From assembly GCA_002685275.1 (NCBI GenBank), contig NYWX01000002.1, positions 7,482 to 28,618 of the forward strand: 21,137 bases of DNA. The letters are read 5' to 3'. The stretch's first letter is position 1, and every line of letters starts with the position of its first letter. Under the pieces are notes generated by a model. The model saw nothing but the letters and a program-made list of their open reading frames with translations. It ran no database searches and was not told the DNA's origin. The position numbers were made by a program, and so were the translations under genes. This document shows, one piece after another, positions 1,337-20,661 of this stretch. The DNA comes from Gammaproteobacteria bacterium. GTDB taxonomy: Bacteria > Pseudomonadota > Gammaproteobacteria > Woeseiales > Woeseiaceae.

Positions 1337-2521
1337 CTATTTTGTGAACCGCTTAGCAATTTCTTTGTAGGCATCACGAAAAGGAATATTTTTTTCTTGC
1401 ACTAGTTTGTATGCTTCTTCAGTTGCATAAATCCCTTGATCAAGATTAATGTTTTCTGGAATAAATTTCAGTCCGCCCAAAAGATATGCCATGATATCCA
1501 CGCTATCAATAGCTAAATCAATGGAACGAAACAATGGCAATTTTAATCTTTGCAAGTCCCGATGATAGCCTGATGTAAGCTTTGCTGTAATCATCAGTGC
1601 TTCATTAAGGCAAGCATGTGAAGTTGATGATGAAGCTCTAAGTAGCTCCAGAACATCAGGATTACGTTTTTGTGGCATTATTGATGATCCAGTTGTTACC
1701 TCTGTTGGAAGCGATATATAGGCAAATTCTTGCGTATAAAACAATAGTAAATCACTAGCCATGCGACCTAGATCTTGAAGCAATAAAGTTATTTCAAAAA
1801 GGAAAGCACTCTCAGCTTTACCCCTTGATAGTTGTACAGCTGTAACAGGATTTTGAGTAATATCAAATTCAAGTTTTTGTGTTGTCATCTCTCGATCGAT
1901 TGGAAGTCCTGGGGTTCCATAACCAGCAGCACTTCCTAATGGATTTTTATTTATCCGTTTTTTTAATAATGCTAATCCTTCTGCAGCATCTTTGAATCCT
2001 TCCTCAAAGCCATTACACCAGAGTGCTACGGATGATGGCATCGCATGTTGCATATGTGTATAACCAGGCAACTTAATATTACCTTGATCATTTTGAAGAA
2101 TTGTAATTGTCTGTCTTAATTTTACAACACGTTTTGTAAGATCAACTGCCGCATCTCTTAAATACATTCTTAGAGCTGTCAAGACTTGATCATTTCTAGA
2201 GCGTCCTAAGTGTAGTCGACCTCCCACTTGACCAATTGCATCAGTTAATCTTGATTCAAGGGCAGTGTGTGCATCCTCATCTTCTAGGCTGATATCCCAT
2301 TCACCTGCCTCAAAACTTTTGCCGAGCTCAGTTAAGCCATTACAAATTAGAGTGCAGTCAGATTCTTTAATTAAGTTTTGAGCGGCTAACATTTCAACAT
2401 GAGCAATTGAAGCAAGCACATCATATACGACCAGCCGAGCATCTAATAGATGATCTTCTCCTGCGGTGTATTGCAAGATTCGTTTGTCTAGCGGTAAGCC
2501 TTTTTCCCAGAGTCTACTCAT
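1337..2521 (-). CDS. argH: Argininosuccinate lyase, short C-terminus
   Basis: Splits argininosuccinate into arginine and fumarate, the last step of arginine synthesis, in the cytoplasm. Visible motifs are LHLGRSRNDQV (residues 103-113), the catalytic-histidine segment THMQHAMP (155-162) and the fumarase/aspartase superfamily signature GSSIMPQKRNPD (278-289) on the mobile loop with the catalytic serine. At 394 residues it is shorter than the usual 430-460. It ends soon after PFRDAYKEIAKRF, where relatives generally continue for some 40-60 residues. The frame beyond the TAG shows no recognisable continuation, so a recent frameshift is unlikely. ATG overlaps the argB stop by 4 bases (ATGA), and argH is the last gene of the operon. 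Confidence 0.95.
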   Translation of the reverse strand: MSRLWEKGLPLDKRILQYTAGEDHLLDARLVVYDVLASIAHVEMLAAQNLIKESDCTLICNGLTELGKSFEAGEWDISLEDEDAHTALESRLTDAIGQVGGRLHLGRSRNDQVLTALRMYLRDAAVDLTKRVVKLRQTITILQNDQGNIKLPGYTHMQHAMPSSVALWCNGFEEGFKDAAEGLALLKKRINKNPLGSAAGYGTPGLPIDREMTTQKLEFDITQNPVTAVQLSRGKAESAFLFEITLLLQDLGRMASDLLLFYTQEFAYISLPTEVTTGSSIMPQKRNPDVLELLRASSSTSHACLNEALMITAKLTSGYHRDLQRLKLPLFRSIDLAIDSVDIMAYLLGGLKFIPENINLDQGIYATEEAYKLVQEKNIPFRDAYKEIAKRFTK

Positions 2522-3447
2522 AAGTCAGCACTTTTTTCAGCAGGCGTTAATCCTTCAATATCATCAACAATAAGAGTTCCTGTTCCTTCATTAGTAAACA
2601 CTTCAAGAAGTATACTATTAGCAACTTTACTAGAAATAACATGCACACGCTGTACTCCATTTGCAATAGCAGAGTCTATTGCTGCAGCTTTTGGAAGCAT
2701 ACCATCTGCAATGCTTCCTGACTTACAGAGTTTTTTTAATGCAGCTCTGTCTAAATAACTTATCAGTGAAGTTGGATCATTAATATCTTCAAGTATTCCA
2801 GCAGCCCCTGTTGCCAGTATAAGTTTTTCAGCGCCTAGTTCAGCAGCAATCGCTGCTGCAACTGTATCTGCATTAATATTAAGAATAGTACCTGATTCAT
2901 CGCAAGAGATTGGACTCACAACTGGCATCATTCCGTTGTCAAGTTGCTTACGAAGAACATCCGCATCAACGGAATCAATATCACCAACAAAACCATAATC
3001 AATTGAAGCTTTTCCATCACACTCTACAGGTGGTCGTTTATGTGCACGAATTAATCCTGCATCAACGCCACTGATACCAACAGCAGGTATTTGTAAGTCT
3101 CTACAAGTAGCTAGAATTCTAGTATTGATTTGACCATTTAGAACCATTGTCGCCACATCCAGTGATTCACTATTTGTTACACGACGACCTTCAATAAAGG
3201 TGGTTTCAAGTCCCAAATCAGATGCAAGTTTTGTAGATTGCGGCCCCCCGCCATGAATTAATACAATTTGCACACCAACTTGGTAAAGAATCCCAACCTG
3301 TTCCATTAATGCAGCAGCTTTTACTTTATCAGCAAAAATTTCTCCACCTGCTTTAATTACAAAAATCTTTCCTTTGTAAAGACGTATATAGGGAGCTGCA
3401 TGTTTAAGCGCTGAGACTACTATTGCATGATCATTTTTTTTGCTCAT
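2518..3447 (-). CDS. argB: N-acylglutamate kinase (acetylglutamate kinase family)
   Basis: Phosphorylates the gamma-carboxyl of an N-acylated glutamate using ATP, the second arginine step. The 309-residue amino-acid kinase fold shows the nucleotide-binding KAGGEIF (residues 32-38), the acylglutamate/ATP loop IHGGGPQ (64-70), NINADTVAAAIA and a C-terminal GSIADGMLPKAAAIDSAI segment that contacts ATP. There is no fused GNAT domain, unlike the bifunctional synthase-kinase of Xanthomonas, so the first step must come from elsewhere. Because its partner transcarbamylase looks succinyl-type, the natural substrate could be N-succinyl- rather than N-acetylglutamate; the kinase sequence does not decide this by eye. 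It lies 2 bases after argF', and its start has a GGA about 8 bases upstream. Confidence 0.94.
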   Translation of the reverse strand: MSKKNDHAIVVSALKHAAPYIRLYKGKIFVIKAGGEIFADKVKAAALMEQVGILYQVGVQIVLIHGGGPQSTKLASDLGLETTFIEGRRVTNSESLDVATMVLNGQINTRILATCRDLQIPAVGISGVDAGLIRAHKRPPVECDGKASIDYGFVGDIDSVDADVLRKQLDNGMMPVVSPISCDESGTILNINADTVAAAIAAELGAEKLILATGAAGILEDINDPTSLISYLDRAALKKLCKSGSIADGMLPKAAAIDSAIANGVQRVHVISSKVANSILLEVFTNEGTGTLIVDDIEGLTPAEKSADL

Positions 3448-3449
3448 AT

Positions 3450-4451
3450 TTATTTTCCAAGCATTTGATGAAGCACAGCCATTTGTGCAAGCATACGATT
3501 ACGTGCTTCATGAATAACAACACTTCGTGGACCATCAAGTATGTTGTCACTTACAACTACGCCTCGCCTTACAGGTAAGCAGTGCATGAAACGACAATCT
3601 TCTTTAGCATTATCAAACCAGGGTTCATCTATACACCAATCAAGATATTGTTCACGTAGCTTTTGGTCATTAATCTTTTCACCGTAATGACGTGTAGATG
3701 ACCATGATTTTGCATAAATAACATGAGCGCCTTCCATAGCTTCTTTTTGTTGATCAGTTTCTTTTACAGATCCACCATTTAAGGTTGCAACTGAAGTTGC
3801 TTGTTGCATTAAAGGAGCTGGCAATTCAAAGCCATCTGGCCTTAACACCGTTACATCCATACCGCGTTTAGCTGCCATGTAAAGAGTAGAAACTGGTACA
3901 GCCAATGGTAAAGCAAGTGGATGGTAAGCCCAGCTTATAACAAACTTACCACCATTTTTTGGAATCTCTAGGTCATCCATAGTTTTCCAATCTGCAAGAT
4001 TCTGACAAGGATGGTTCATTGCGGATTCCATATTTATATACGGTGTATCAATTAAATTTACCAAAGAATTAAATTCTTTTTCTTGTATATCTGTTTCAAT
4101 GTTTTTGCGTTCAGCAAAAGCTCGAATACCAATAGCATCACCATAGGATGCAATTACTGGAACAGCCTCCCTAATATGTTCAGCCGCCGCCCCGTCCATA
4201 ACGATACCCGGTCTGGTTTCTATTCCATGGATGGACATGTCAGGTGAAATTACAAATGATCCTCCTCCAAGACGTGTCATTGCTGCCTGGAAAGAAGCTA
4301 AAGTTCGTAAAGAAGGATTTAAAAATAAAAGTGATAAAACTTTTCCTTTCAAGGCTTCTGGCTCCGGGTGCGAGTCGAGTCGACCTGCTAGCTCCACAAG
4401 TGCTTGAATTTCTTCATTTGAAAAATCAGCCAGATTATTAAAAGATTTCAT
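3450..4451 (-). CDS. argF': N-acylornithine transcarbamylase (AOTCase/SOTCase family, succinyl-like specificity residues)
   Basis: Transfers the carbamoyl group of carbamoyl phosphate to an N-acylated ornithine, giving N-acylcitrulline. The 333-residue protein has the carbamoyl-phosphate motif SLRT (47-50), HPCQ (147-150), YAKSW with K248, and HCLPVRR (290-296). The segment VMDGAAAEH places Ala90 at the position that is Glu92 in Xanthomonas campestris N-acetylornithine transcarbamylase and Pro90 in Bacteroides fragilis N-succinylornithine transcarbamylase. The Xanthomonas Lys302, which is carboxylated in that enzyme, aligns with Val299 here (VRRGVVVSD). LPLAVP also looks like the succinyl enzyme. 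Leu51 replaces the usual Arg after SxRT. I chose ATG at 4451, with AAGAGA upstream, over the TTG one codon earlier. It is not an ordinary ornithine transcarbamylase. Confidence 0.9.
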   Translation of the reverse strand: MKSFNNLADFSNEEIQALVELAGRLDSHPEPEALKGKVLSLLFLNPSLRTLASFQAAMTRLGGGSFVISPDMSIHGIETRPGIVMDGAAAEHIREAVPVIASYGDAIGIRAFAERKNIETDIQEKEFNSLVNLIDTPYINMESAMNHPCQNLADWKTMDDLEIPKNGGKFVISWAYHPLALPLAVPVSTLYMAAKRGMDVTVLRPDGFELPAPLMQQATSVATLNGGSVKETDQQKEAMEGAHVIYAKSWSSTRHYGEKINDQKLREQYLDWCIDEPWFDNAKEDCRFMHCLPVRRGVVVSDNILDGPRSVVIHEARNRMLAQMAVLHQMLGK

Positions 4452-4462
4452 CAATATTTCTC

Positions 4463-5647
4463 TTAGTTATTTAAAGGTGTAATATTTTTTAACGCCTTAG
4501 CGAGTTGATCAATGTGTTCTGATTTTAGGATCAAAGGAGCAAGTATTCTAATTACATTTGGATCACTACTGGTTCCCGTTAGGATATTTTGTTCCAAAAG
4601 TGCATCACGTACCTCCACTGCTGGACGATCACAAATTAAACCCAATAAGAGACCTTTTCCTTGAATCTTTTTTATAGGCCCAGTGATACATTTTTTTCTA
4701 ATAGCCACTTCGGATTGACATACATTATAGAGAAGATTTTCCTCATTAATTATATCGATAGTGGCTACTATTGCCGCCGCCGCTAACGGGCCACCACCAA
4801 ATGTAGTGCCTAAATCACCATTACCAAAAGAAGATGCAACTTCTTCACTGCAAAGAACGGCTCCGCATGGAATTCCACCACCTAATGCTTTTGCGCTTGT
4901 AAGGATATCAGGTGCAACATCGTGTATATCCACTGCAAAGAACTTGCCACAACGACCCATTCCAGACTGAACTTCATCCGCAATTAAAAGTGCACCATGT
5001 GCTTTTGTTAACTTACGTAAAGCTCTAATAAATTTTGTAGATAAATCATAGCCACCAGCAACACCCTGAACAGGTTCAAATATTACCGCTGCTATGTCGT
5101 CGTTAATCATTCTTTTTGCAGATTCGATATCATCCCGAGCTATGAAATCAACCTCAAATGGTTTTTCTGCAAAGCCATACCAGCGTTCAGCATTCCATGT
5201 TATTGCAGCAGCAGCAGCAGTCCGACCATGAAAACCATGAGTTATAGCAAGTATTTTTTTACGTCCTGATGCCATACATGCCATACGCAAAGCATTTTCA
5301 TTTGCTTCGGCACCTGAATTTACAAAAAAAACGCGGTTCAGCTCTTTTGGGGTAATATTTATAAGCTTTTCTGCAGCTTGAGCTCTTATATCTAGAGCAA
5401 CTACGTTACTTTGAAAAAGTAATTTACCGCATTGATCTGTTATTATTTTTATTTGTTTTGGATGACTATAGCCTAGTGCTGCAACCGCATGACCCCCATA
5501 AAGATCAAGAATACATCGACCATCGTTTGTATATATATCACATCCAAAAGCTCTTTCTGGAACAAACGGCAGTTGTCCATAGACAGGCACCATTGCATTT
5601 GCTTCACGAACTAGTGGATTTGACGATATTATTTGATTGTCACTCAT
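4463..5647 (-). CDS. argD: N-acylornithine aminotransferase
   Basis: A PLP-dependent class III aminotransferase that converts N-acylglutamate semialdehyde to N-acylornithine with glutamate as amino donor. Its 394 residues show SGAEANE (111-117, phosphate cup), HGFHGRT (137-143, cofactor ring stacking), EPVQG (191-195), ADEVQSGMGR (223-232, Asp to the pyridine nitrogen) and TSAKALGGGIP with Schiff-base lysine K253. A TTG five codons upstream is in frame, but it overlaps argC; the ATG at 5647 leaves a 5-base gap and fits the family N-terminus better. An alanine run near residue 145 comes from a GCA-type triplet repeat in the DNA. Homologues can double as succinyldiaminopimelate aminotransferase, so a second role in lysine synthesis is possible. 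Confidence 0.94.
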   Translation of the reverse strand: MSDNQIISSNPLVREANAMVPVYGQLPFVPERAFGCDIYTNDGRCILDLYGGHAVAALGYSHPKQIKIITDQCGKLLFQSNVVALDIRAQAAEKLINITPKELNRVFFVNSGAEANENALRMACMASGRKKILAITHGFHGRTAAAAAITWNAERWYGFAEKPFEVDFIARDDIESAKRMINDDIAAVIFEPVQGVAGGYDLSTKFIRALRKLTKAHGALLIADEVQSGMGRCGKFFAVDIHDVAPDILTSAKALGGGIPCGAVLCSEEVASSFGNGDLGTTFGGGPLAAAAIVATIDIINEENLLYNVCQSEVAIRKKCITGPIKKIQGKGLLLGLICDRPAVEVRDALLEQNILTGTSSDPNVIRILAPLILKSEHIDQLAKALKNITPLNN

Positions 5648-5652
5648 AATAA

Positions 5653-6714
5653 TTAAGTCCAACCTGGTGCTGAGGCAGTAAGACCAGAGGTTTCAGGTAG
5701 ATCCCAGAGTCGATTCATCCACTGTATGGAGCCTCCAGCTGCACCTTTTATTAGATTATCGATTACACTCATAATAACTATTGAATCACCATCAGTAGCA
5801 ATTCCAATATGACACATGTTGCTTGCAACGACATTCTTTAATTTTGGCGTTTTATCCACTATTTCAATGAATGGCGAGTTTTTATAAGCGTCTAAATATA
5901 TTTCTAAAAGCTGTTTTTTATTAACAGCTTTAACTGTTTTAGCTTGAACAGTCACATGAATACCTCTTGCAAATGACCCTGAATGAGGTACGAAATGCAC
6001 ATTTGTATTATACCCACTCGCAATTTTGGTTAGGTGTTCAATCTCCGGAGAGTGACGATGAAATAACGGATTATATGCATATAAATTGCTATTACGATCT
6101 GGGTGATGAGTGCCTGTCTGCGGGCTTCGCCCAGATCCAGTACTACCAGTTATACCTGAAATAAAAATATCTGATTGTATTAATTCTGACTTGGCAAGTG
6201 GCACTGTCGCAAGCAAGCTCGCTGTTGCAAAACAGCCCGGGTGCCCAACATGATCAGTAGATATAACATCAAGATGCTCAGGTAGAGCACAACTAAAACT
6301 ATTTGATAAATCTGGCGCACCATGCTCAATACCGTATATTGTTTCCCAGGTAGATTGTTCAGGAAATCTAAAATCAGCAGATGAATCTACAATGTGAAGA
6401 TTAAACTTTTTCTTTTTACCAACTTCAATAACCGCTGCTAGAGTTTGAGCTGACGCTCCATGCGGAGCAGCAGAAAATAAAGCAACATTGGCACCATCTT
6501 CAATATTTTTCATCCAATCGTCACGAGAAACAAAATAAGTATCAGGTAACGCTTGAGAGAGATGACCGAAAGTTTTACTAACGAGTTGTCCATTACTACT
6601 GTTAGAAACAGCTGCAGCAAGATCAAAATTTGGATGATTTGCTATCAACCTCAATAATTCACCACCAACGTAGCCATTGGCGCCTATAACAACTGCTTTA
6701 ATTGAGTTATTCAT
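5653..6714 (-). CDS. argC: N-acyl-gamma-glutamyl-phosphate reductase
   Basis: Reduces N-acylglutamyl phosphate to the semialdehyde with NADPH, the third arginine step. The 353-residue protein has the Rossmann motif GANGYVGGEL (11-20), SAAPHG, DSSADFRF (110-117), the catalytic cysteine C161 in HPGCFAT, and a substrate-binding HRHSPEIE (219-226). The loop TGSTGSG (189-195) followed by THHPDR is closer, as I recall them, to Bacteroidetes-type ArgC than to the enterobacterial SGVSGAGR form; this agrees with the operon's argG and argF' types. It lies 2 bases after the P-loop gene. The ATG at 6714 is the only good start. Confidence 0.95.
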   Translation of the reverse strand: MNNSIKAVVIGANGYVGGELLRLIANHPNFDLAAAVSNSSNGQLVSKTFGHLSQALPDTYFVSRDDWMKNIEDGANVALFSAAPHGASAQTLAAVIEVGKKKKFNLHIVDSSADFRFPEQSTWETIYGIEHGAPDLSNSFSCALPEHLDVISTDHVGHPGCFATASLLATVPLAKSELIQSDIFISGITGSTGSGRSPQTGTHHPDRNSNLYAYNPLFHRHSPEIEHLTKIASGYNTNVHFVPHSGSFARGIHVTVQAKTVKAVNKKQLLEIYLDAYKNSPFIEIVDKTPKLKNVVASNMCHIGIATDGDSIVIMSVIDNLIKGAAGGSIQWMNRLWDLPETSGLTASAPGWT

Positions 6715-6716
6715 AA

Positions 6717-7766
6717 TTAATCCTTGCCAAGCAACTCAGCAATCTTATCGCCTAATACAAAGCCACTTGAGAGTGCGTTGATTCCTGGTAAAGATAGACG
6801 ATCAGCAATTTGCTGAATACCAACATCATTGTCTGTAGCTGGCCCAGTTACAACTGCAGGCTCAATGTTAAATTCATCTCGTAGAATTTTTACTCCTCCC
6901 CAAGCTGATACAGGGTCGTTAGCACAAAGCACAACTGCTGTTAATGACTTCTTAATTTGTTTATCAGCTAGTATCGCTCCAACGCCATATGTTCCAAGTA
7001 AACCGTCACCTAGCTCAAGGACAATAACATCGGGTTCTTTTTCACCCATACTAGTCAATAGAGAGCGTGTAATAGCAGGGCCATTCTTAGCTGTTGTGGT
7101 AACAATACCAAGATCTGAAAAAATCATTGTATATTTTGCGCCCGCATCTTCCATTGCAAGCACATCTCTACGCAATGAAACGCCCGCAGCTTTGCAGGCA
7201 GCTACGGTTAAACCAAGATGTCGCAATCTACCAACTATTGCACAAGCTGCAGCTGTTTTACCAGAATCCATGCAAGTACCGGCAAGCGCTACCACAGGAA
7301 CATTGTTGACATTTAATTTTGAATTGATATCAAGTTTAGAAGACCCAGCACGCGCTGGCACACCAATGCGCTCCCCTAGGTAAGGAAATTCTAAGACAGT
7401 CCCGAGTACTTCACAGTTAAATGCAGTGCCAACCTCAGGATTTGTTGAATCACAAATACCGATTACTCCACCTATATTAAGAATTTGCACATGATCACCA
7501 ACTGAAAGCTCATTTGGTAAATGTCCAGAATAACCTCTAAGAGCATTACGATGCCCAAGCGCTCCAACGACAACATCACCCATAGTGATAGTCGCCATTC
7601 GACCTGATGTTAACTCAAGCTGGTTATATCTAGATTTGTTATTCAATACACGTACAGCAATAAGTATTCCTTCTTCGCATGTGATTTCAGACGAAAGTCT
7701 TAGCACAGAAGTTATGTCATTGTGTTGAGCAATGGATGCTATTTTATCAACTACAATATTTCTCAT
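6717..7766 (-). CDS. Unassigned P-loop protein in the arginine operon (BioD/DUF1611-like C-terminal domain)
   Basis: I do not recognise this gene as a named arginine enzyme. The 349-residue protein has two parts. Residues 1 to about 150 look like an all-beta domain rich in Gly/Val: TMGDVVVGALGHRNALRG (61-78), then LSVGDHVQILNIGGVIGICD (87-106). Residues 157-349 are a P-loop domain with GTCMDSGKT (163-171), i.e. G-x5-GKT. That spacing is seen in dethiobiotin synthetase (GTDTEVGKT) and, from memory, in DUF1611 proteins (GTDCAVGK), not in the usual Walker A. Further motifs are CKAAGVSLRRD (191-201), VIVLELGDGLLG (247-258) and AVVLCANDP (277-285), placed like the later strands of that fold. One DUF1611 member, DgcN, is reported to N-acetylate D-glutamate. 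The gene sits 1 base after argG and 2 before argC, with GGAAG upstream of its ATG, so it is firmly in the operon. No synthase or deacylase gene is present nearby. Confidence 0.93.
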   Translation of the reverse strand: MRNIVVDKIASIAQHNDITSVLRLSSEITCEEGILIAVRVLNNKSRYNQLELTSGRMATITMGDVVVGALGHRNALRGYSGHLPNELSVGDHVQILNIGGVIGICDSTNPEVGTAFNCEVLGTVLEFPYLGERIGVPARAGSSKLDINSKLNVNNVPVVALAGTCMDSGKTAAACAIVGRLRHLGLTVAACKAAGVSLRRDVLAMEDAGAKYTMIFSDLGIVTTTAKNGPAITRSLLTSMGEKEPDVIVLELGDGLLGTYGVGAILADKQIKKSLTAVVLCANDPVSAWGGVKILRDEFNIEPAVVTGPATDNDVGIQQIADRLSLPGINALSSGFVLGDKIAELLGKD

Positions 7767-7767
7767 A

Positions 7768-8976
7768 TTATTCTTCCGCTGCTTTTGTTTGGAGCGAACC
7801 TGTTAAAGACAAAATTTTTGCAAAACCAAGCGTATCAACGGCAGTCCATTCACCTGCAGATTCTCCATACACACCTTTAGTTGCCGATAGTAGCGAATAT
7901 TTTGAATTTGTTCCTTCAATAAACAAATTCCCTGGTTGTAACGTGAAGGTAACTGTTCCACTGACACGTTTTTGAGAGGAATTAAAAAAGGCTTCAATAT
8001 CTTCACAAACTAAATCCAACTGTTTTCCCTCATGCACTAGATCTCCATATATTGCAGAGATACTATCTTTAACGCGCATTTGTTGAGCACTTAAAACTAA
8101 CTTTTCAAGTTCTCGATGTGCTGTGATTAGCGTTGCTGCTGCAGGCGCTTCAAATGCAACTCGTCCTTTAGTACCGAGAACTGTATCGCCAAGATGAATG
8201 CCTCGCCCAATACCATAGCTTCCCGCAATTTTTTCAAGTTCTTCAATAAGTTTTACTGGGGTAAACTTCTTTTTGTTTAGAGCAACCGGAACACCTTGAA
8301 AAAATTCAAGACTGTGAGTAGATTTTTCAAGGGGCTTCAAAAAAGCAGTTGGCGATAGAACCCATGCTGATTCTGGTATTGATGACACCGAAGTTAAAGT
8401 TTCTTGACCGCCAATCGTGATACCCCATAAACCTCGATTTATAGAGTAAGAAGAACCCTGAGACGGTAAAGGTAAATGATTTTCTTTAAGGTAATTTAAT
8501 TGCTTTTCTCGAATCCAATTGTTATCTCGAACTGGCGCTAAGATTTTTAATCCAGGGTTTAATGTTCTTAGGGCTACTTCAAATCTTACTTGATCGTTAC
8601 CTGCTGCTGTACATCCGTGGGCAACTGTTGTTGCACCTCGCTCAGCGACAATCTTTGCAATCTTTTCTGCTTGGAGACCTCTTTCAGCTCCAACACATAA
8701 GGGGTAAGCTTGTCCACGCAACACGTTACCTGTAATTAAATGCTTTATAACATTATCAAAAAAATCTTGTTTTGCATTTACTAGAATATGATCTATTGCA
8801 CCTAAAGCAATGGATCGTTCTTTGAGTTTTACCGCAGCATTGTCACTAATACCTCCAGTATCAATGCATACAGTGATAACTTCTCGATTATAATTTTCCT
8901 TTAACCAAGGAACACAGAATGAAGTATCCAGGCCGCCTGAAAATGCCAAAATAATAGGTGATGTGTCTGTTTTCAC
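7768..8976 (-). CDS. argG: Argininosuccinate synthase
   Basis: Joins citrulline and aspartate with ATP to form argininosuccinate. The N-terminal ATP-pyrophosphatase loop is AFSGGLDTS (residues 11-19); further motifs are AHGCTAAGNDQVRFE and the subtype segments SINRGLWG and IGGQETLTS. These match the Bacteroidetes/Xanthomonas subtype of ArgG as I remember it rather than the E. coli long form. I start at GTG 8976 because GGAG (8983-8986) lies exactly 6 bases upstream; the in-frame TTG at 8988 overlaps that ribosome site. This gives 402 residues and a 15-base gap after argR. If citrulline arises only as N-acylcitrulline, an acyl-citrulline deacylase must act before this enzyme, and none is encoded here. 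Confidence 0.95.
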   Translation of the reverse strand: MKTDTSPIILAFSGGLDTSFCVPWLKENYNREVITVCIDTGGISDNAAVKLKERSIALGAIDHILVNAKQDFFDNVIKHLITGNVLRGQAYPLCVGAERGLQAEKIAKIVAERGATTVAHGCTAAGNDQVRFEVALRTLNPGLKILAPVRDNNWIREKQLNYLKENHLPLPSQGSSYSINRGLWGITIGGQETLTSVSSIPESAWVLSPTAFLKPLEKSTHSLEFFQGVPVALNKKKFTPVKLIEELEKIAGSYGIGRGIHLGDTVLGTKGRVAFEAPAAATLITAHRELEKLVLSAQQMRVKDSISAIYGDLVHEGKQLDLVCEDIEAFFNSSQKRVSGTVTFTLQPGNLFIEGTNSKYSLLSATKGVYGESAGEWTAVDTLGFAKILSLTGSLQTKAAEE

Positions 8977-8991
8977 AAATTTCTCCAAAAG

Positions 8992-9438
8992 CTAAAGTCT
9001 AGAAAAGTGCTTAATTTTTGAGATTATATTTTTTTGTGCAACGCCAGATTCAGTTGCAACAAATACCGTGTCATCCCCACCTATACTGCCAACAACTTCT
9101 GGCCAATTGCAACGATCAAAGGCTAACGCAACGCGTTGTGCCGCGCCAATTGCAGTATCAACAACAAGTAAATTAGGTCCCGCAGGTAACATTGCTCTTA
9201 AAAGATCATTAACTTCTGCAAAATGATTGTCGTTTAAATCATTTTCTTCGGGAAGTTCATATCCTTTGCTTGTTTTGATTGCACCAAGTCCTTTAAGATC
9301 ACGGCTAACACTTGATTGAATAGATTTATAACCTAGTTCGTTTAAAGCAAGCACTAACATTTCCTGTGTTTGAGAATTGCCTTTTGTTAACAGCTGTCTA
9401 AGAATTTCGCGACGTTTTTCATGGTGTGTTGTAGACAT
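8992..9438 (-). CDS. argR: Arginine repressor
   Basis: Hexameric arginine-sensing repressor of 148 residues. The N-terminal winged helix carries SSVSRDLKGLGAIK (42-55), equivalent to the Ser-Arg DNA-recognition segment of E. coli ArgR. The C-terminal oligomerisation domain ends with GSIGGDDTVF (117-126); the GDDT aspartates bind L-arginine in the family. ATG at 9438 is chosen because AGGAA (9444-9448) lies 5 bases upstream. A possible upstream start at 9474 would place the operator and -10 region inside the gene and add an atypical N-terminus. As first gene of the operon, with palindromic sites overlapping its own promoter, it probably represses itself and all the arg genes. Confidence 0.95.
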   Translation of the reverse strand: MSTTHHEKRREILRQLLTKGNSQTQEMLVLALNELGYKSIQSSVSRDLKGLGAIKTSKGYELPEENDLNDNHFAEVNDLLRAMLPAGPNLLVVDTAIGAAQRVALAFDRCNWPEVVGSIGGDDTVFVATESGVAQKNIISKIKHFSRL

Positions 9439-9447
9439 ATAAATTCC

Positions 9448-9473
9448 TGCATAAATATGCACATAATTATGCA
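9448..9473. promoter_or_regulatory. Candidate ArgR operator (overlapping ARG-box-like palindromes)
   Basis: Two palindromes share a central TGCA: TGCATAAATATGCA (9448-9461) and TGCACATAATTATGCA (9458-9473), the latter with perfect core CATAATTATG. The first fits the E. coli ARG box core TGAATWWWWATTCA at 12 of 14 positions. They cover the -10 box, the likely transcription start and the edge of the argR ribosome site, which suits repression. Their centres are 12 bases apart, not the 21 typical of paired E. coli ARG boxes. A further half-site ATTCA is at 9497-9501. Confidence 0.6.
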
Positions 9474-9494
9474 ATAATGATCATATTAAGTCAA
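9466..9494 (-). promoter_or_regulatory. Promoter of the arginine operon (argR first)
   Basis: The minus strand reads TTGACT (9489-9494), a 17-base spacer, then CATAAT (9466-9471). Both hexamers match the sigma-70 consensus at 5 of 6 positions with optimal spacing. Transcription would start near 9459, leaving a leader of about 20 bases before the argR ATG. That is too short for attenuation, so control should be by repressor binding. Confidence 0.7.
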
Positions 9495-9556: not shown

Positions 9557-10216
9557 TTGCAACAGATTGAAAGTATTGAAATAAACACTGACACTAACCC
9601 TATTGGAAGTATTATCTGGCTACATGGCTTAGGAGCGGATGGCCATGATTTTGAACAAATTGTGCCGGAACTAAATCTACCAAAAGATATTCCATTACGT
9701 TTCGTTTTTCCGCATGCTCCAATTCAGCCAGTGACTGTCAATAATGGAATGGCTATGCGTTCATGGTACGACATATTAAGTTTTGATCGTGAGGGAAGAG
9801 CTGATAGAGAAAGTTTTTTAAAAAGCTGTGATTTTCTATGTTGTTTAATTGATAAAGAAATTAAACGCGGCATAAAGGAAGATAAGATTGTTATTGCTGG
9901 GTTTTCGCAGGGCGGTGCTGTTGCTATACATACAGCATTACAGTCAAGCTACAATATAGCAGGACTAATGGCGCTTTCTACTTATGTAGCTTTATCTGAT
10001 ATTTCAGATACCGCAATATGTCGAAAAAACTTACCAATTTTTATGGCGCATGGCACATTCGATCCAGTGTTAGAAATTGACTGGGGTAGAGAGTCAGCTA
10101 ATAAAATTATCGAGTCTGGTTATTCAGTTGATTGGCATGAATATTCGATGGGCCACACTATTTCTTCAAAAGAAATAACAGATATAAGTAAATGGTTATC
10201 GCATATTTATTTATAG
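9557..10216 (+). CDS. Alpha/beta-hydrolase carboxylesterase (acyl-protein thioesterase/EstB type)
   Basis: A 219-residue cytoplasmic hydrolase of the phospholipase/carboxylesterase family. It shows the oxyanion region WLHGLGADGHDF (21-32), the nucleophile elbow GFSQGG with S117, D169 in AHGTFDP and H200 in MGHTIS, a complete catalytic triad at family spacing. Length equals that of Pseudomonas fluorescens esterase II (about 218). No signal peptide is seen. The start is TTG, supported by GGAG (9547-9550) 6 bases upstream; no ATG lies in frame near it. It is transcribed divergently from argR across a 118-base gap and may share that control region, though nothing links its activity to arginine. 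Natural substrate unknown. Confidence 0.9.
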   Translation: MQQIESIEINTDTNPIGSIIWLHGLGADGHDFEQIVPELNLPKDIPLRFVFPHAPIQPVTVNNGMAMRSWYDILSFDREGRADRESFLKSCDFLCCLIDKEIKRGIKEDKIVIAGFSQGGAVAIHTALQSSYNIAGLMALSTYVALSDISDTAICRKNLPIFMAHGTFDPVLEIDWGRESANKIIESGYSVDWHEYSMGHTISSKEITDISKWLSHIYL

Positions 10217-12963: not shown

Positions 12964-13638
12964 ATGTGTGGAAGATTTGTTTTTTATTCCTCTAATAAAA
13001 AAATAGAGGAAAAATTTGGTATCCGTAGTTCATTAAAATCTGAACCACGATACAATATCTCGCCAACACAATATGTAGCTGCAATTCGAGAAGAAAATAA
13101 CAAAAAACGTGAAGTTGCAACTCTTCGTTGGGGTCTAATACCGTCTTGGTCAAAAAATATTGCAATAGGAAATCATATGTTCAATGCCCGCGCAGAGACA
13201 ATATTAGAGAAACCCTCTTTTCGTTCTGCGTTTATGAATCGTCGTTGTATTGTGTTAGCCGATGGCTTTTATGAGTGGCATAAAAGTGGTAATAAAAGAA
13301 TTCCCTATTTTATATCTTTGGTAAGTAGTGAGCCTTTTGCTTTAGCCGCAATCTGGGAAAAATGGACGGATGTAAAAACTGGAGAAACTATACAAACAAC
13401 GTCAGTTCTTACGATGGCCTCAAATGATTTTATGTTACGACTACATCATAGAATGCCAATAATTATTGAATCTAACGCAATTGGGGATTGGTTAACTGGA
13501 AAAAATACTTTTTTTAAAAATGCGATGCAAAGAATACCGAAACTCCATGCTTGGCAGGTAACTAATGAAGTGAACAATTCTCGTAATCAAGGCAAATTTC
13601 TAATTAATCCTGTTGAGAAAGATCATCAAATGATATGA
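12964..13638 (+). CDS. SRAP-domain abasic-site crosslinking protein (HMCES/YedK family)
   Basis: Forms a covalent, protective thiazolidine link with abasic sites in single-stranded DNA during replication. The 224-residue protein has the invariant N-terminal MCGRF (Cys2 becomes the N-terminal nucleophile after Met removal), NISPTQ (31-36), MFNARAET with N74, ADGFYEW with E104 and HHRMP with H162, all key positions of E. coli YedK. It follows yadH by one base, an odd partner for an exporter, and likely shares its transcript. Its 3' end overlaps the convergent DAK2-DegV gene by 35 bases. Confidence 0.93.
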   Translation: MCGRFVFYSSNKKIEEKFGIRSSLKSEPRYNISPTQYVAAIREENNKKREVATLRWGLIPSWSKNIAIGNHMFNARAETILEKPSFRSAFMNRRCIVLADGFYEWHKSGNKRIPYFISLVSSEPFALAAIWEKWTDVKTGETIQTTSVLTMASNDFMLRLHHRMPIIIESNAIGDWLTGKNTFFKNAMQRIPKLHAWQVTNEVNNSRNQGKFLINPVEKDHQMI

Positions 13639-15442
13639 CCGGGCAGGTTGATACAGTTAATGTTCCCGGCCCTCCATGAGCTCCAAGTGCAGGGCCTAGT
13701 TCACAAATTTGTAATTTATCTATACTTAGATTCTTACTTCTTATTTTTTTTGCAAGCTCTTTCGCACCTTTTTCATAAATCGCATGCCCAATACCTATTT
13801 GTATTTTTTCCTTTTTATTGTGTTGAGAAGCAATAAACTTTGAATATTTACTTAAATTATCACGATGCCCCAGGAAAAATGTCGCTATTCCAATTTTTCC
13901 ATTTGCTTTAATGCACATTATTGGTGTTATTCGAAATAAATCCGCCATCCACTTAACCCATATTGACAAACGACCACCTCGAACTGCATAAGACAAATCT
14001 TGGAGCATAATAAAAGTTTTAATCTTTGGTATTGCTCGTTTAATAACTTGTAATGCTTCATCAATACCCATTCCTGCGGCAGCACATTCGGCTGCTAAAA
14101 CAGATAATTGACCTTGCCCCATAGAAGCATTCAAAGAATCAACTACATATATATGTTTTGAAGAATCACTTCTTTTTGCCGCTAAATAAGCTCCTTCATG
14201 AGTTCCACTAGCATGAGAACTAAGTGTAATTGAAAGAACTTTTTCGTAATGGCTGGTTAAGAATTGAAATTGGCGTTTAAAGTCACCTGGCGATGGACGT
14301 GAAGTTGTTGGGTAATTTTTGTTTTTTCTAATTTTTGAATAAAATTCACTTGCGGTAATGCTTACTTTATCAAGGTAGTCATCTTTGCCAAATTGAATCC
14401 TACAAGGAACCATATAAATATTTAATTCTTCCATGTCTTCATCGCTTATGTCAGCTCCTGAATCCGTTATAACAGCAAATTTTTTTGACTTGTTAAATAT
14501 AATACCTTGTTGTCTAAACATATCATCAGCTTTCTCTCCAGTAACCTCACCAAACTGTTTCGTTTTTAAAAAAACTTTATCTGGATAATTTGTGTGGATG
14601 TGAACTTTTACCTTATTTTTGCTACCGGCTAAAACCATTGAATCGCCAAGCTCAATGAGGGCTTCTTGTAATTTTTTTTTATTAATATCTTTTGAACTGA
14701 CAAAACATTCTGTGCAGAAACGAAATTTTGATTGATGTTCATTATCGGAAATATTTACTTGTTTTTTGATTTTATTAACTAAAAATTTTTCTGGTAAAAG
14801 TTTAATTTCCCTATTCTTCAGGTAATAAGACATTCCATCAATAAGAAGCGCAAAACCTTGAGCACCAGCATCGACTAGGCCTGCTTTTTTTAGAACATTT
14901 AGTTGTTGGGTTGTATTTATAAGTGCTTTGTTAACATTAAATTGAGCTTTACTTATAATTTCTTCGAATTTGATATTTGGATCTTTTGAGACTAGCTCAG
15001 AGATGCAATCAGCAAAAGCCTGCATTACCGATAAAACAGTACCTTCACGAGGCTTCAAAAGTGCTTCATGGGCATATTGATACCCTAAATTAATAGCTTT
15101 ACTTAAAGTTTGCACTGTAAATTGTTTTTGTTCTACGGAAGACTCGCTGAGTCCTTGGAAAAATTGAGCAAATATTGCACCAGAGTTTCCACGCGCTCCA
15201 TCTAGCAATGCATCTGCTAAAGCTTTAAGCATTTCATGTAAATCTTTATCTTCATCATCTTTAATTACTGTTAACGCAGAATTTAATGTAAGACTAAGAT
15301 TTGTTCCAGTATCACCATCTGGTACTGGAAATATATTAATGTGGTTGAGATGGTCTTGTTCAGCAATTACACAATGGAAGCCCGAAACTAAAGCATTAGT
15401 TAGTTCATTATTTTCTATGTAAGAATAATGTTGCTTATTCAC
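13604..15442 (-). CDS. DAK2-DegV fusion (FakA-like plus FakB-like fatty acid kinase parts)
   Basis: A 612-residue two-part protein. The N-terminal DAK2/DhaL domain shows FPVPDGDTGTN (38-48), GARGNSGAIF and DAGAQGF, the Mg-ATP-binding loops of FakA/YloV-type kinases. A middle segment (about 240-315) contains FCTECFV, VKVHIHT and a region ending DDMFRQQ, as in FakA. From about residue 322 an EDD/DegV fatty-acid-binding domain follows, with AVITDSGADIS, TSRPSPGDF, SITLSSHASGTHEGA and VRGGRLS. In Firmicutes these are separate proteins that phosphorylate exogenous fatty acids for PlsX/PlsY; the same role is inferred here. I prefer GTG at 15442, overlapping the gspB stop by 8 bases. ATG codons at 15472-15464 and 15487 would add a hydrophobic stretch made of the antisense-free gspB tail. 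No strong ribosome site precedes any of these. Confidence 0.88.
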   Translation of the reverse strand: MNKQHYSYIENNELTNALVSGFHCVIAEQDHLNHINIFPVPDGDTGTNLSLTLNSALTVIKDDEDKDLHEMLKALADALLDGARGNSGAIFAQFFQGLSESSVEQKQFTVQTLSKAINLGYQYAHEALLKPREGTVLSVMQAFADCISELVSKDPNIKFEEIISKAQFNVNKALINTTQQLNVLKKAGLVDAGAQGFALLIDGMSYYLKNREIKLLPEKFLVNKIKKQVNISDNEHQSKFRFCTECFVSSKDINKKKLQEALIELGDSMVLAGSKNKVKVHIHTNYPDKVFLKTKQFGEVTGEKADDMFRQQGIIFNKSKKFAVITDSGADISDEDMEELNIYMVPCRIQFGKDDYLDKVSITASEFYSKIRKNKNYPTTSRPSPGDFKRQFQFLTSHYEKVLSITLSSHASGTHEGAYLAAKRSDSSKHIYVVDSLNASMGQGQLSVLAAECAAAGMGIDEALQVIKRAIPKIKTFIMLQDLSYAVRGGRLSIWVKWMADLFRITPIMCIKANGKIGIATFFLGHRDNLSKYSKFIASQHNKKEKIQIGIGHAIYEKGAKELAKKIRSKNLSIDKLQICELGPALGAHGGPGTLTVSTCPVISFDDLSQQD

Positions 15443-16031
15443 GAGGCAAAGAAAATAAATAACCATCATCATCAAGAATAACGCCATTATCCGTTATCTT
15501 TATGATTTTAGGGCCTTCAATGAGTTGTGAACCTTCTTTCAGCTTTATCATATTTATAAATACAAACCTATTTTTGGGGTCAACACTATATACATGAATA
15601 TCTAAGTGAAGTTCAGGAATACTTTTATTTCTTGATCTAGCTTCATCTATGGATGGTAATAACTCGTATGATGGGATTGCAAATGAATTTTGATCTCTTG
15701 AAATTTGGTTAGGTTTTTTTAATTTTAGGGCTTGATCTTTATTTAATATTTTTTCTTCATTAATTTCAACTTGATTACCAAAACCAAAAGATTTATTAGT
15801 TGGAATTATTACAGATTCTATTTCAGACTTTTTTGTGGAGATTTGAGGTAGATTAATTTTATACATAAGAATCGCGAGAACAAAAAAATTAATAGATAAT
15901 AAAATAACAATAATCCAAATCCAACCAGGCTTTGCTGAATTCGATTCACTTATTGGTATATCAGTGAATTTAGTGTCACTCTGCTTACGATCAATTTCTG
16001 ATTTTTTTAGTGCATCTAAGATAAATGACAT
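15435..16031 (-). CDS. gspB: General secretion pathway protein B
   Basis: A 198-residue inner membrane protein that works with GspA (ExeA/ExeB) to place or assemble the type II secretion secretin in the outer membrane. It starts with the family opening MSFILDALKKSEIDRK, has one membrane span at about residues 37-57, a low-complexity periplasmic linker, and the C-terminal GspB domain (about 140-198) with HVYSVDPKNRFVFIN and ITDNGVILDDDG. It begins 2 bases after gspA. No other type II secretion gene is in the window, so the pair stands apart from any gspC-N cluster. Confidence 0.9.
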   Translation of the reverse strand: MSFILDALKKSEIDRKQSDTKFTDIPISESNSAKPGWIWIIVILLSINFFVLAILMYKINLPQISTKKSEIESVIIPTNKSFGFGNQVEINEEKILNKDQALKLKKPNQISRDQNSFAIPSYELLPSIDEARSRNKSIPELHLDIHVYSVDPKNRFVFINMIKLKEGSQLIEGPKIIKITDNGVILDDDGYLFSLPRE

Positions 16032-17709: not shown

Positions 17710-18600
17710 TCACAGTCCACGCTCAACAATAAACCGAGCAAGCCATGCTAATGAATTACTAGCCTCTCCAAGTTGGGACAACTCATCGAGCGCTTGATCA
17801 AGTAGTTCATTACAACGAGCTTCTGATTTTTTTATGCCAAATAAAGAAGGATAGGTTGCTTTATTTTGATTTTCGTCAGATTTAGCTGGTTTACCAATAG
17901 CTTCTGTTTTTCCAACTACATCGAGAATATCATCTTTTATCTGAAATGCTATTCCAATGATTTTACCAAAATTATTAAGTGCTCTTAAGTCATTTTTGCA
18001 GGACCTTTCACTTAAAATATATGCAGACATAATAGCAGCATGAATCAAGGCACCTGTTTTTAAGGAATACATATGTTCAATTGCATTTACAGAAAGCTCC
18101 CTGCCTTCAGCTGCAAGATCAATAAACTGTCCTCCTGTCATACCAATTGATCCACAAGCTTCTGATATGAGTTTAATAAGTTTAGTTGCTGCATCTGGAG
18201 GTCCCTCTCTAGCACTAGCAAGTATTGAAAATGCTAGTGGCTGAAGCGCATCTGCAGCTAGTATTGCAGTAGCCTCATCATATTGCTTATGAACTGCAGG
18301 TTTACCACGACGTAAATCGTCATCATCCATTGCAGGAAGATCGTCATGAATTAATGAAAATGCATGGATTAGCTCTATAGCAATAGCGGGAACATCAAGT
18401 AGTTCAGCATCAACATTTAAAGTTTCGCCTGCAGCATAAACTAATAATGGCCTGATACGCTTACCACCATTAAAAACTGCATATCGCATGGCGTCGTGCA
18501 GTCGCTCAGGAGTTCTATCGACAGGAGGGAGAACAGTATTTAAACCACCATCAACTCTTGTGGTATAAACCTTAATACGATCTTTGAATTTAGAGGACAA
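17710..18600 (-). CDS. ispA: Farnesyl diphosphate synthase (polyprenyl synthetase)
   Basis: Condenses IPP with DMAPP and then GPP to farnesyl diphosphate. About 296 residues show GGKRIRPLL (45-53), the first aspartate-rich motif DDLPAMDDDDLRRG (86-99), GMTGGQFIDL (153-162) and the second motif FQIKDDILD (219-227). The extended first motif (DDx4D) is typical of bacterial FPP/GPP synthases. No ATG is available before residue 38; TTG at 18600 is the upstream choice, without a clear ribosome site, so the exact start is uncertain. It is divergent from the mevalonate genes across 118 bases, coupling C5 supply with chain elongation. Confidence 0.93.
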   Translation of the reverse strand: MSSKFKDRIKVYTTRVDGGLNTVLPPVDRTPERLHDAMRYAVFNGGKRIRPLLVYAAGETLNVDAELLDVPAIAIELIHAFSLIHDDLPAMDDDDLRRGKPAVHKQYDEATAILAADALQPLAFSILASAREGPPDAATKLIKLISEACGSIGMTGGQFIDLAAEGRELSVNAIEHMYSLKTGALIHAAIMSAYILSERSCKNDLRALNNFGKIIGIAFQIKDDILDVVGKTEAIGKPAKSDENQNKATYPSLFGIKKSEARCNELLDQALDELSQLGEASNSLAWLARFIVERGL

Positions 18601-18678: not shown

Positions 18679-18718
18679 TCATGTTATTAATAAAAAATTA
18701 CTTATGGGGCGCATGAAT

Positions 18719-19681
18719 ATGTATGCGACAGCAACTGCACAGCCAAATATTGCACTGATTAAATATTGGGGAAAGCGTGATATACCAAAAAATTTACCTG
18801 CAGTAGGGTCAATTTCCATAACACTCAACGATTTGTTTACTGAAGTCTGTGTCAATTTAAAACCCTGCCTATCAAAGGATGAATTGATTGTTAACGGCAA
18901 ACGCAACTTTGAAATGTTACCACGCATTGCCGCATGTATTGATAATATCTTAGGAGAGAAGCGATCAAGAGTTCAAGTAAGTAGTAAAAGCAATTTCCCA
19001 ATTGCTGCTGGATTAGCATCATCTGCATCAGTATTTGCAGCAATAACAAAGGCTACCACCACCGCTGCAGGATTAAAGTATACAGATTTAGATTTAGCAA
19101 AATTAGCTGGGCAAGCATCAGGATCTGCTGCTCGTTCGCTTTATGGAGGTTTTGTAGAACTCAACAATGCTAAAAATAGCATAGAAGTAAAATCACTTTG
19201 TGACCCAAATTCATGGCCTTTGCAGGTGGTCATTGCTATTACGGAAACAGAGAAAAAAGCCATTAGCTCTAGTCTTGCTATGGAAATTTCTCGTAAAACA
19301 TCGCCATTTTATAGAACATGGATTGCACAACAAGACCAAGATCTTGAAACTGCACGCATCGCTATTAAACATCATGATTTTGATAAACTTGCTACTGTTG
19401 CTGAGCATAGTTGCCTCAAAATGCATTCAGTCATGTGGGCATCCAGGCCTCCATTAATATATTGGAATTCTGCAACAATAGCTTGCATGCAGAAAGTAAG
19501 AAAATTACGGCAGGAAGGTTTTAAAGTTTTTTTTACAATTGATGCAGGTCCACAAGTAAAAGCAATATGTCTTAAGGAGCATGCTAAGATCGTACGAGAA
19601 GAATTAGAGAAAACATCTGGAGTTAAGCAAGTAATGGAGAGTAGCATAGGTGCTGCAGCTCGTGTGGTTGGATCTTCATGA
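18719..19681 (+). CDS. mvaD: Diphosphomevalonate decarboxylase
   Basis: ATP-dependent decarboxylation of mevalonate diphosphate to IPP, the last step of the classical mevalonate pathway. The 320-residue GHMP-fold protein has PNIALIKYWGKRD (9-21), PAVGSISITL, the phosphate loop AAGLASSASVFAA, GQASGSAARSLYGGFVELN (with the catalytic arginine) and FFTIDAGPQVKA with the catalytic aspartate near residue 275. In-frame ATGs exist at 18704, 18713 and 18719; I chose 18719 because GGGG (18706-18709) lies 9 bases upstream and the protein then starts MYATATAQPN like relatives. The stop overlaps the next ATG by 4 bases. Confidence 0.95.
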   Translation: MYATATAQPNIALIKYWGKRDIPKNLPAVGSISITLNDLFTEVCVNLKPCLSKDELIVNGKRNFEMLPRIAACIDNILGEKRSRVQVSSKSNFPIAAGLASSASVFAAITKATTTAAGLKYTDLDLAKLAGQASGSAARSLYGGFVELNNAKNSIEVKSLCDPNSWPLQVVIAITETEKKAISSSLAMEISRKTSPFYRTWIAQQDQDLETARIAIKHHDFDKLATVAEHSCLKMHSVMWASRPPLIYWNSATIACMQKVRKLRQEGFKVFFTIDAGPQVKAICLKEHAKIVREELEKTSGVKQVMESSIGAAARVVGSS

Positions 19682-20661
19682 GTTTACTTGTTAAAGCTAG
19701 CTCTCCAGGCAAAGTTATTCTCAGTGGCGAATATGCTGTTTTAGATAAAGCTCCAGCTATATGTATGGCAGTTAACTGTCGTGCAGAGGTAATAATTGAA
19801 AAGTGTAATAATGGAATTTCTCGAGTTGAATCTTCTGGCTATCATTCAAAAAAAGGTGAGTTTGAATTTCTAGAAAAAGGTATTTTATGGCGAGACGGCC
19901 AAGAGTCATTTGCTGTAATTGATGCTGTTTGGCAGGTTATTGATAACTATGTGCCTATAAATCAAAAGATAAACCTTAATACCATCGCGTTTGTTGATGA
20001 GTATTGTAATAAAAAATTAGGCCTTGGATCGAGTGCTGCGATCATTGTTGCTTTAATTGCAGCTGTCAAAAAGTGTGATGATCTAAAAAAAATTAAAATT
20101 TTAGCCCATCAAGCCCATAAAAAATTACAAGGTGGTCTGGGAAGCGGTGTTGATATTGCAACAAGTTTATATGGCGGCTTATTAGAATTTCAAATAGAAA
20201 ATTTCACCACAAAGTCTTTATCGTGGCCTGATGGTTTATGTTATCGACTTATTTGGACTGGTTCTTCCGCAAGTACAAAAGATAAGTTAAGGCGCTTTTT
20301 TGGAGGTAGAGATAAATCTTCTCGAAGAGAATTGATAGATGCATCAAAGATTATGGCAGCTCATTGGCAAAATAGTGATGCTGAAAAAATTCTAGCTGGG
20401 TATGTAGATTATTGTAAATCACTTTATGATTTTAGTTGTGATTATAATCTAGGAATTTTTCAAATGGGCCATGAAGAGTTATTTCAAGAAGCAAAGAAAA
20501 AAAACCTTATATATAAACCTTGTGGTGCAGGTGGCGGTGATATTGGTATCCTTTTAGGATTAAATTCTGAAGAATTAGATAAATTTTGTTCTTCTATGTC
20601 AAAAAGCTTTAAAAAGCTAGACTACAAGTTGAGTATTGATGGCGTTAGAATTGAAGTATGA
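19678..20661 (+). CDS. mvaK2: Phosphomevalonate kinase (GHMP kinase)
   Basis: Phosphorylates mevalonate 5-phosphate to the diphosphate. The 327-residue protein has the N-terminal APGK-like SSPGKVILSGEYAVL (8-22), the ATP loop KLGLGSSAAIIV (113-124), LQGGLGSGVDIATSLYGG (150-167), WTGSSAST (193-200) and GAGGGDIGI (283-291). GAGGGD and WTGSxAS match phosphomevalonate kinases such as the Staphylococcus MvaK2, whereas mevalonate kinases usually read GAGGGG; I therefore prefer this over mevalonate kinase. It is joined by ATGA overlaps to mvaD before it and mvaA after it. Confidence 0.87.
   Translation: MSLLVKASSPGKVILSGEYAVLDKAPAICMAVNCRAEVIIEKCNNGISRVESSGYHSKKGEFEFLEKGILWRDGQESFAVIDAVWQVIDNYVPINQKINLNTIAFVDEYCNKKLGLGSSAAIIVALIAAVKKCDDLKKIKILAHQAHKKLQGGLGSGVDIATSLYGGLLEFQIENFTTKSLSWPDGLCYRLIWTGSSASTKDKLRRFFGGRDKSSRRELIDASKIMAAHWQNSDAEKILAGYVDYCKSLYDFSCDYNLGIFQMGHEELFQEAKKKNLIYKPCGAGGGDIGILLGLNSEELDKFCSSMSKSFKKLDYKLSIDGVRIEV

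Follow-up and report, generated by a model that had tools for sequence, protein, structure and literature searches.

A candidate N-acyl-L-glutamate synthase of the P-loop type encoded in the arginine operon of Woeseiaceae

Acylglutamate synthases known so far belong, to our knowledge, to the GNAT-type or ArgJ families, and M20 hydrolases are the usual deacylases. According to GapMind, any of the residues S, P, A and V at the specificity position of the carbamoyltransferase causes a preference for succinyl compounds (PMC7311316). Here we describe a gene from an arginine operon that encodes a P-loop protein outside these synthase families. It lies in a stretch of 21,137 nucleotides from a Gammaproteobacteria bacterium of the family Woeseiaceae (assembly GCA_002685275.1, contig NYWX01000002.1, positions 7,482 to 28,618 of the forward strand), referred to as the window in the following. 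From its sequence and genomic context we propose, with a probability of roughly 0.6, that the protein catalyzes the first committed step of arginine synthesis and forms N-acyl-L-glutamate, most likely the N-succinyl compound. The proposal is based on the fixed place of the gene in the operon, the co-occurrence with a carbamoyltransferase of the succinyl class, the lack of GNAT domains on the ArgB and ArgH proteins scanned, and the residues of dethiobiotin synthetase found in the P-loop domain.

The open reading frame (ORF) at 6717..7766 on the minus strand starts with ATG and encodes 349 amino acids. It is separated by 1 base from the upstream argG (argininosuccinate synthase, 7768..8988, minus strand, TIGR00032 over cut-off) and by 2 bases from the downstream argC (N-acyl-gamma-glutamyl-phosphate reductase, 5653..6714, minus strand, TIGR01850 over cut-off), within the run argR-argG-P-loop gene-argC-argD-argF'-argB-argH. 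Translation and coordinates thus bear out the initial annotation, which had described the ORF, both gaps and a G-x5-GKT motif (GTCMDSGKT) at residues 163-171, and which had asked whether the gene accompanies arg genes in relatives. It does. A single scan of species genomes returned 116 stretches encoding a relative, of which the best 80 were kept (63-88% identity; records titled Woeseiaceae, Woeseia, Gammaproteobacteria, Proteobacteria or Chromatiales). The gene is located between argG and argC on one strand in all 80 loci, with a median gap of -4 bases on each side. Since this place is conserved throughout and 6998 of 8000 scored candidates are homologous to the protein at E <= 0.001, the ORF is not a chance ORF. 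No source gave a functional name for any of the best 120 of the 6998 homologues, and a literature search, covering mostly titles and the beginnings of abstracts, yielded no paper that we recognized as dealing with this protein.

Among a sample of 275 gammaproteobacterial genomes 19 match the P-loop protein at E <= 1e-10. Seven of them carry a gene of the arginine type (E < 1e-70) and 12 only relatives at <=32% identity. All seven arginine-type genes lie between argG and argC, even at 42-46% identity; two of these genomes (G060, G134) show the order argD-argF'-argB-argH-argG-P-loop gene-argC, and in G247 the contig ends, with argD, argF', argB and argH located on another contig. Order-wide, 152 of 196 genomes carry the arginine-type gene at E <= 1e-60. 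In the phylum the gene was present in 2 of 398 genomes.

The distribution of the gene follows that of a special carbamoyltransferase. The argF' gene of the window (N-acylornithine carbamoyltransferase, 3450..4454, minus strand) reaches 327.4 bits with the N-acetylornithine carbamoyltransferase model NF003384 (cut-off 288). In the class sample this model scores over its cut-off in 10 of 275 genomes, namely the seven with the P-loop gene and three others; the probability of this overlap is p = 5.5e-12 by a hypergeometric test that ignores kinship. Most of the 202 genomes matching the model at E <= 1e-40 are far below its cut-off. Matches in G183:C5 (251.7 bits) and G085 (242.6 bits) were likewise below cut-off, located apart from arginine genes and gapped at the specificity position, and were not counted. 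The three other genomes (L200-L202) share an operon of argF', argG, argB, argC and argH without the P-loop gene, for which we use the label "Xanthomonas-type". L200, whose ArgB was the only one of this type scanned, has a NAT domain fused to ArgB and, between argG and argB, an M20 gene; the other two operons show an M20 match at the same site.

The two groups also differ in the carbamoyltransferase itself. ArgF' of the window has Ala where the Xanthomonas campestris structures 3l02, 3l05 and 3m4n have A, S and E, respectively, a position which we take to be Glu92 of that enzyme, 3l02 and 3l05 presumably being mutants. Ala is found in all 70 loci holding argF' (among the 80). Of the seven arginine-type genomes in the class sample four have Ala, one Pro and two Val, whereas the three Xanthomonas-type genomes have Glu. 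The window argF' was also positive in the test for an N-succinylornithine carbamoyltransferase, which looks for one of S, P, A and V where the X. campestris enzyme has Glu92. The substitutions E92A, E92P, E92S and E92V reportedly convert the Xanthomonas enzyme, in agreement with the published statement on this position. N-succinylornithine is therefore the predicted substrate of the window ArgF'. Considering the Ala, Pro and Val residues together with the statement on S, P, A and V in PMC7311316, the arginine pathway beside the P-loop gene probably runs on N-succinyl intermediates, a prediction drawn from one residue.

The initial annotation had pointed out that the operon lacks both an acylglutamate synthase and a deacylase. 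Neither an acylglutamate synthase nor an M20 deacylase was found among the window proteins scanned with Pfam and NCBIfam. ArgB (acylglutamate kinase, 309 amino acids, 2518..3447, minus strand, TIGR00761 over cut-off) has no GNAT domain and matches in Pfam only AA_kinase and, below cut-off, PA; ArgH (argininosuccinate lyase, 394 amino acids, 1337..2521, minus strand, TIGR00838 over cut-off) has no GNAT extension, with Lyase_1 and a weak ASL_C2 match only. ArgB consists of the kinase domain alone in the window as well as in L154 and L205. For the rest of the genome the argA, argJ and argE content was deduced from relatives only, 22 of which were picked from the 80 loci for large contigs and divergence, their completeness not being given. 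ArgJ was found in none of the 22, while the same model was positive in 10 of 14 control genomes. The classical N-acetylglutamate synthase (NAGS/ArgA) model was over cut-off in none of the 22 relatives and in one of the 14 controls. Each genome shows one match of 147-165 bits that covers the kinase part and was assigned to ArgB; 11 of the 22 show no further match. DUF1611 proteins proper, of the DgcN kind, accompany the P-loop protein in only 14 of 22 relatives, a share too small for them to supply N-acylglutamate in general.

We next considered the structure. The AlphaFold2 (AF2) model has a mean predicted local distance difference test score (pLDDT) of 94.2 and a predicted template modelling score of 0.91. 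It contains strands before residue 170 with no helix of at least 4 residues there, and an alpha/beta domain from residue 158, so that the two halves expected from the sequence, a beta-rich N-terminal one and a C-terminal P-loop domain, are indeed found. All parts lie on the minus strand: the N-terminal domain (residues 1-153, 7308..7766), which belongs to no known family, the P-loop domain (residues 154-349, 6720..7307) with the fold of CTP synthase, dethiobiotin synthetase and DUF1611, and the Walker A motif (7254..7280). The N-terminal half had also been described as unlike the Rossmann domain of DUF1611 and possibly new. Its oddity is real, as there is no Pfam match and no Rossmann pattern in the model; at E <= 10 seven N-terminal pieces gave a single weak match to a minor capsid protein (E 0.067), which we regard as a chance match. 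We do not claim a new fold because the domain predicted alone from 54 close sequences reaches a pLDDT of only 56.5. The rows of the fold search with the predicted model span mainly residues 154-349 and barely test this domain. They indicate that the C-terminal fold resembles dethiobiotin and CTP synthetases. A PDB search with the single sequence of the protein gave no match.

The P-loop protein stays below the cut-off of every Pfam and NCBIfam model. The only Pfam match is MobB, and membership was rejected as both models remain below cut-off (PF03205 18.3 versus 26.6 bits, TIGR00176 20.1 versus 76.2 bits). Matches to MobB, CbiA and AAA_26 in family members were taken to reflect the common P-loop. 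With no GNAT/NAT domain and only this weak MobB match, a GNAT-type N-acetylglutamate synthase was rejected as well. For dethiobiotin synthetase (BioD) a profile comparison with hhalign gave a probability of 87.9% with GKT, Lys and Asp aligned. All 87 homologues keep the GKT of Walker A (G169, K170, T171) as well as K192, D201 and E251. These residues correspond to the GKT, Lys, Asp and Glu of BioD, the equivalence of the Glu being assigned by motif; we take these to be the Mg-ATP site residues of BioD. Membership in the BioD family was rejected, the window protein having no TIGR00347 match at E <= 0.1; a relative from Priestia reaches 26.2 bits (cut-off 83.3).

The initial annotation had also noted a likeness to DUF1611. 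This holds for the fold and fails for membership. PF07755 gives no match at E <= 1, hhalign a probability of 8.7% over 41 columns at the P-loop only, and the DgcN motifs GTDC-x-x-GK(M/R/K) and TGQ(T/S)G are missing, with GTCMDSGKT and, instead of the TGQTG stretch, K192. Counter to this rejection, PF07755 matches 15 of 87 family members at E <= 0.01, with 6e-5 as the best value, and precomputed annotation assigns it to some distant relatives. The link is that of a common fold, not of membership.

In our reading the P-loop protein would join the acyl group to L-glutamate by an amide bond at the alpha-amino position, and the product would be passed to ArgB. The beta-rich domain may hold the amino acid. 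As donor we tentatively favor succinate activated by ATP, by analogy with dethiobiotin and CTP synthetases, and assign to it the larger part of the probability of our proposal. The succinyl group would be removed later, from N-succinylcitrulline, by DapE. Each of the 22 relatives has M20 hydrolases. Of the 28 genomes with the P-loop gene, 27 have a DapE over cut-off and the 28th has one split over two frames, so that no other kind of hydrolase is needed. In G020 the sole match to the DapE model is DapE itself, with three further M20 matches by Pfam. We hypothesize that DapE acts as a desuccinylase common to lysine and arginine synthesis.

Several observations weigh against the proposed function. 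At E <= 1e-60 the gene is missing in 44 of 196 genomes of the order, and these were outside the search for alternative synthases. The genome-wide synthase search in the relatives, moreover, covered the ArgJ and NAGS models but neither the PF04768 NAT domain nor the Bacteroides-type synthase. G169 has an argF' fragment (275.7 bits, below cut-off, with Ala) on a 3-kb contig with no P-loop gene detected, and either counts against the co-occurrence rule or is incomplete. Two of the 28 genomes with the gene have an ArgE over cut-off. The top Foldseek matches by E-value are signal recognition particle (SRP)-type GTPases, and the fold alone therefore does not say synthetase. NF005921, by its name presumably a short NAGS model, is over cut-off in none of 31 genomes (28 with the P-loop gene), which is weak evidence since it is over cut-off in none of the 14 controls either; weak GNAT matches occur in 24 of the 31 genomes, including 21 of those with the P-loop gene.

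These weak matches would suit the alternative that the P-loop protein performs another step, such as deacylation of N-acylcitrulline, or acts as a regulatory NTPase, with an unrecognized GNAT making N-acylglutamate. The missing deacylase of the operon and the fold shared with SRP-type GTPases and with HypB, NTPases that serve in regulation or assembly, point in the same direction. We nevertheless consider it unlikely: the residues in common with dethiobiotin synthetase fit a synthetase, seven of the 31 genomes, all with the P-loop gene, have no NF005921 match at all (G002, G019, G021, G022, G037, G060, G286), and the M20 and DapE counts given above provide deacylases. The deacylase or hydrolase role that the initial annotation had offered as its second choice is disfavored, as the closest folds sharing the conserved residues are synthetases, while its acylation reading, including the N-succinyl guess, gains support from the operon lock, the special carbamoyltransferase class, the absence of the gene from Xanthomonas-type operons and the failure to find ArgJ or classical ArgA in any of the 22 relatives. 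If the protein is an N-acylglutamate synthase, it might instead use an acyl-CoA such as succinyl-CoA, with the P-loop holding the phosphates of CoA. DgcN, which has the same fold, is titled an N-acetyltransferase, but the P-loop protein keeps the dethiobiotin synthetase set where DgcN has GKM and TGQTG, and its profile is far closer to BioD than to DUF1611; to this variant we assign the smaller part of the probability of our proposal. Least probable is that the arginine operon merely carries a copy of a family whose role is unrelated, one that turns glutamate or ornithine into a side product, for instance. Paralogues do lie near ABC transporters, a flavin reductase with M20, and a phosphonate cluster, but the arginine type forms its own clade across most of the order and the tight operon in 80 loci speaks for a core role.

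The contexts of these paralogues bear on the chemistry of the whole family. In a midpoint-rooted tree of 50 members the arginine type (98/95), a flavin reductase-M20 type (100/100) and an ABC-transporter type (98/98) form clades, with weak deepest forks; the sister of the arginine type is the acidobacterial protein P0201. Flavin reductase, M20 hydrolase and a P-loop paralogue stand in a row in six loci (L121 4242-7106, in which alone the domains were scanned, and L124, L125, L127, L128, L160). On a Priestia megaterium plasmid (L081 4730-13418) a relative is found with phosphoenolpyruvate mutase, a carbamoyltransferase, two ATP-grasp proteins and an M20 amidohydrolase, which looks like a phosphonate pathway. 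In L122, L123, L082 and L084, found in Gammaproteobacteria and on Rhodobacterales plasmids, another paralogue accompanies an ABC transporter together with a protein resembling alpha/beta hydrolases. That M20 hydrolases recur as partners fits, without proving, a family whose products are N-acyl amino acids or amides of a similar kind. Given such different contexts, the arginine case does not fix the common chemistry of the family, a further point to be set against our proposal.

The remaining genes of the run are argD (N-acylornithine aminotransferase, 4463..5662, minus strand), with TIGR00707 as best match at 339.9 bits, below its cut-off of 410.05, and PF00202 over cut-off, and argR (arginine repressor, 8992..9474, minus strand, PF02863 and PF01316 over cut-off), the first gene of the run. 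Adjoining argR and divergent from it is a carboxylesterase-like gene (9557-10216, plus strand), found in 73 of 80 loci. Elsewhere in the window, 13604-15487 (minus strand) encodes a 627-amino-acid protein that combines DAK2, FakA middle and DegV domains; a single chain would thus seem to hold the two halves of a fatty acid kinase. Mevalonate-type isoprenoid genes, which are unusual in Gammaproteobacteria, are located at 18704-20661 (plus strand) and 17710-18600 (minus strand): diphosphomevalonate decarboxylase and a probable mevalonate kinase of the GHMP kinase type adjoin a polyprenyl synthetase.

If our proposal is true, the P-loop enzyme would be a further solution for acylglutamate synthesis and provide the first function for a family of at least 6998 relatives. 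It would also correct carbamoyltransferases labelled N-acetylornithine carbamoyltransferase by a database model, and the succinyl arginine pathway, described for Bacteroidetes in PMC7311316, would extend to marine Gammaproteobacteria. A bolder version, possible but doubtful as a whole, is that a new class of ATP-dependent succinate:L-glutamate ligases, P-loop amidoligases rather than GNAT or ArgJ, opens the arginine pathway of Woeseiaceae and of some other Gammaproteobacteria, with DapE common to lysine and arginine synthesis, both succinylated, and that the wider family makes N-acyl amino acids with M20 partners.

Compared with described systems, the window operon resembles the Bacteroides-type succinylated pathway in the succinyl-class residue of its carbamoyltransferase. 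According to PMC7311316, the synthase proposed there is BT3761, >50% identical to Cabys_1732, whereas the window operon has the P-loop protein instead. The Xanthomonas-type operon likewise combines an N-acylornithine carbamoyltransferase with argG, argB, argC and argH, but differs in the ArgB-NAT fusion (scanned in L200), the presence of an M20 gene among the operon genes, a Glu residue at the specificity position and the lack of a copy of the P-loop protein. DUF1611/DgcN proteins (PF07755; PDB 7xrj, 2obn, 2g0t) have the same fold with another N-terminal domain, and GKM and TGQTG where the P-loop protein has GKT and K192; DgcN is an N-acetyltransferase by its PDB title, and PMC12363236 and PMC10845958 connect dgcN with the use of D-glutamate and with Woeseiales. 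BioD, finally, lacks the extra beta-rich N-terminal domain of the P-loop protein, whose gene is located in an arginine operon and not with biotin genes.
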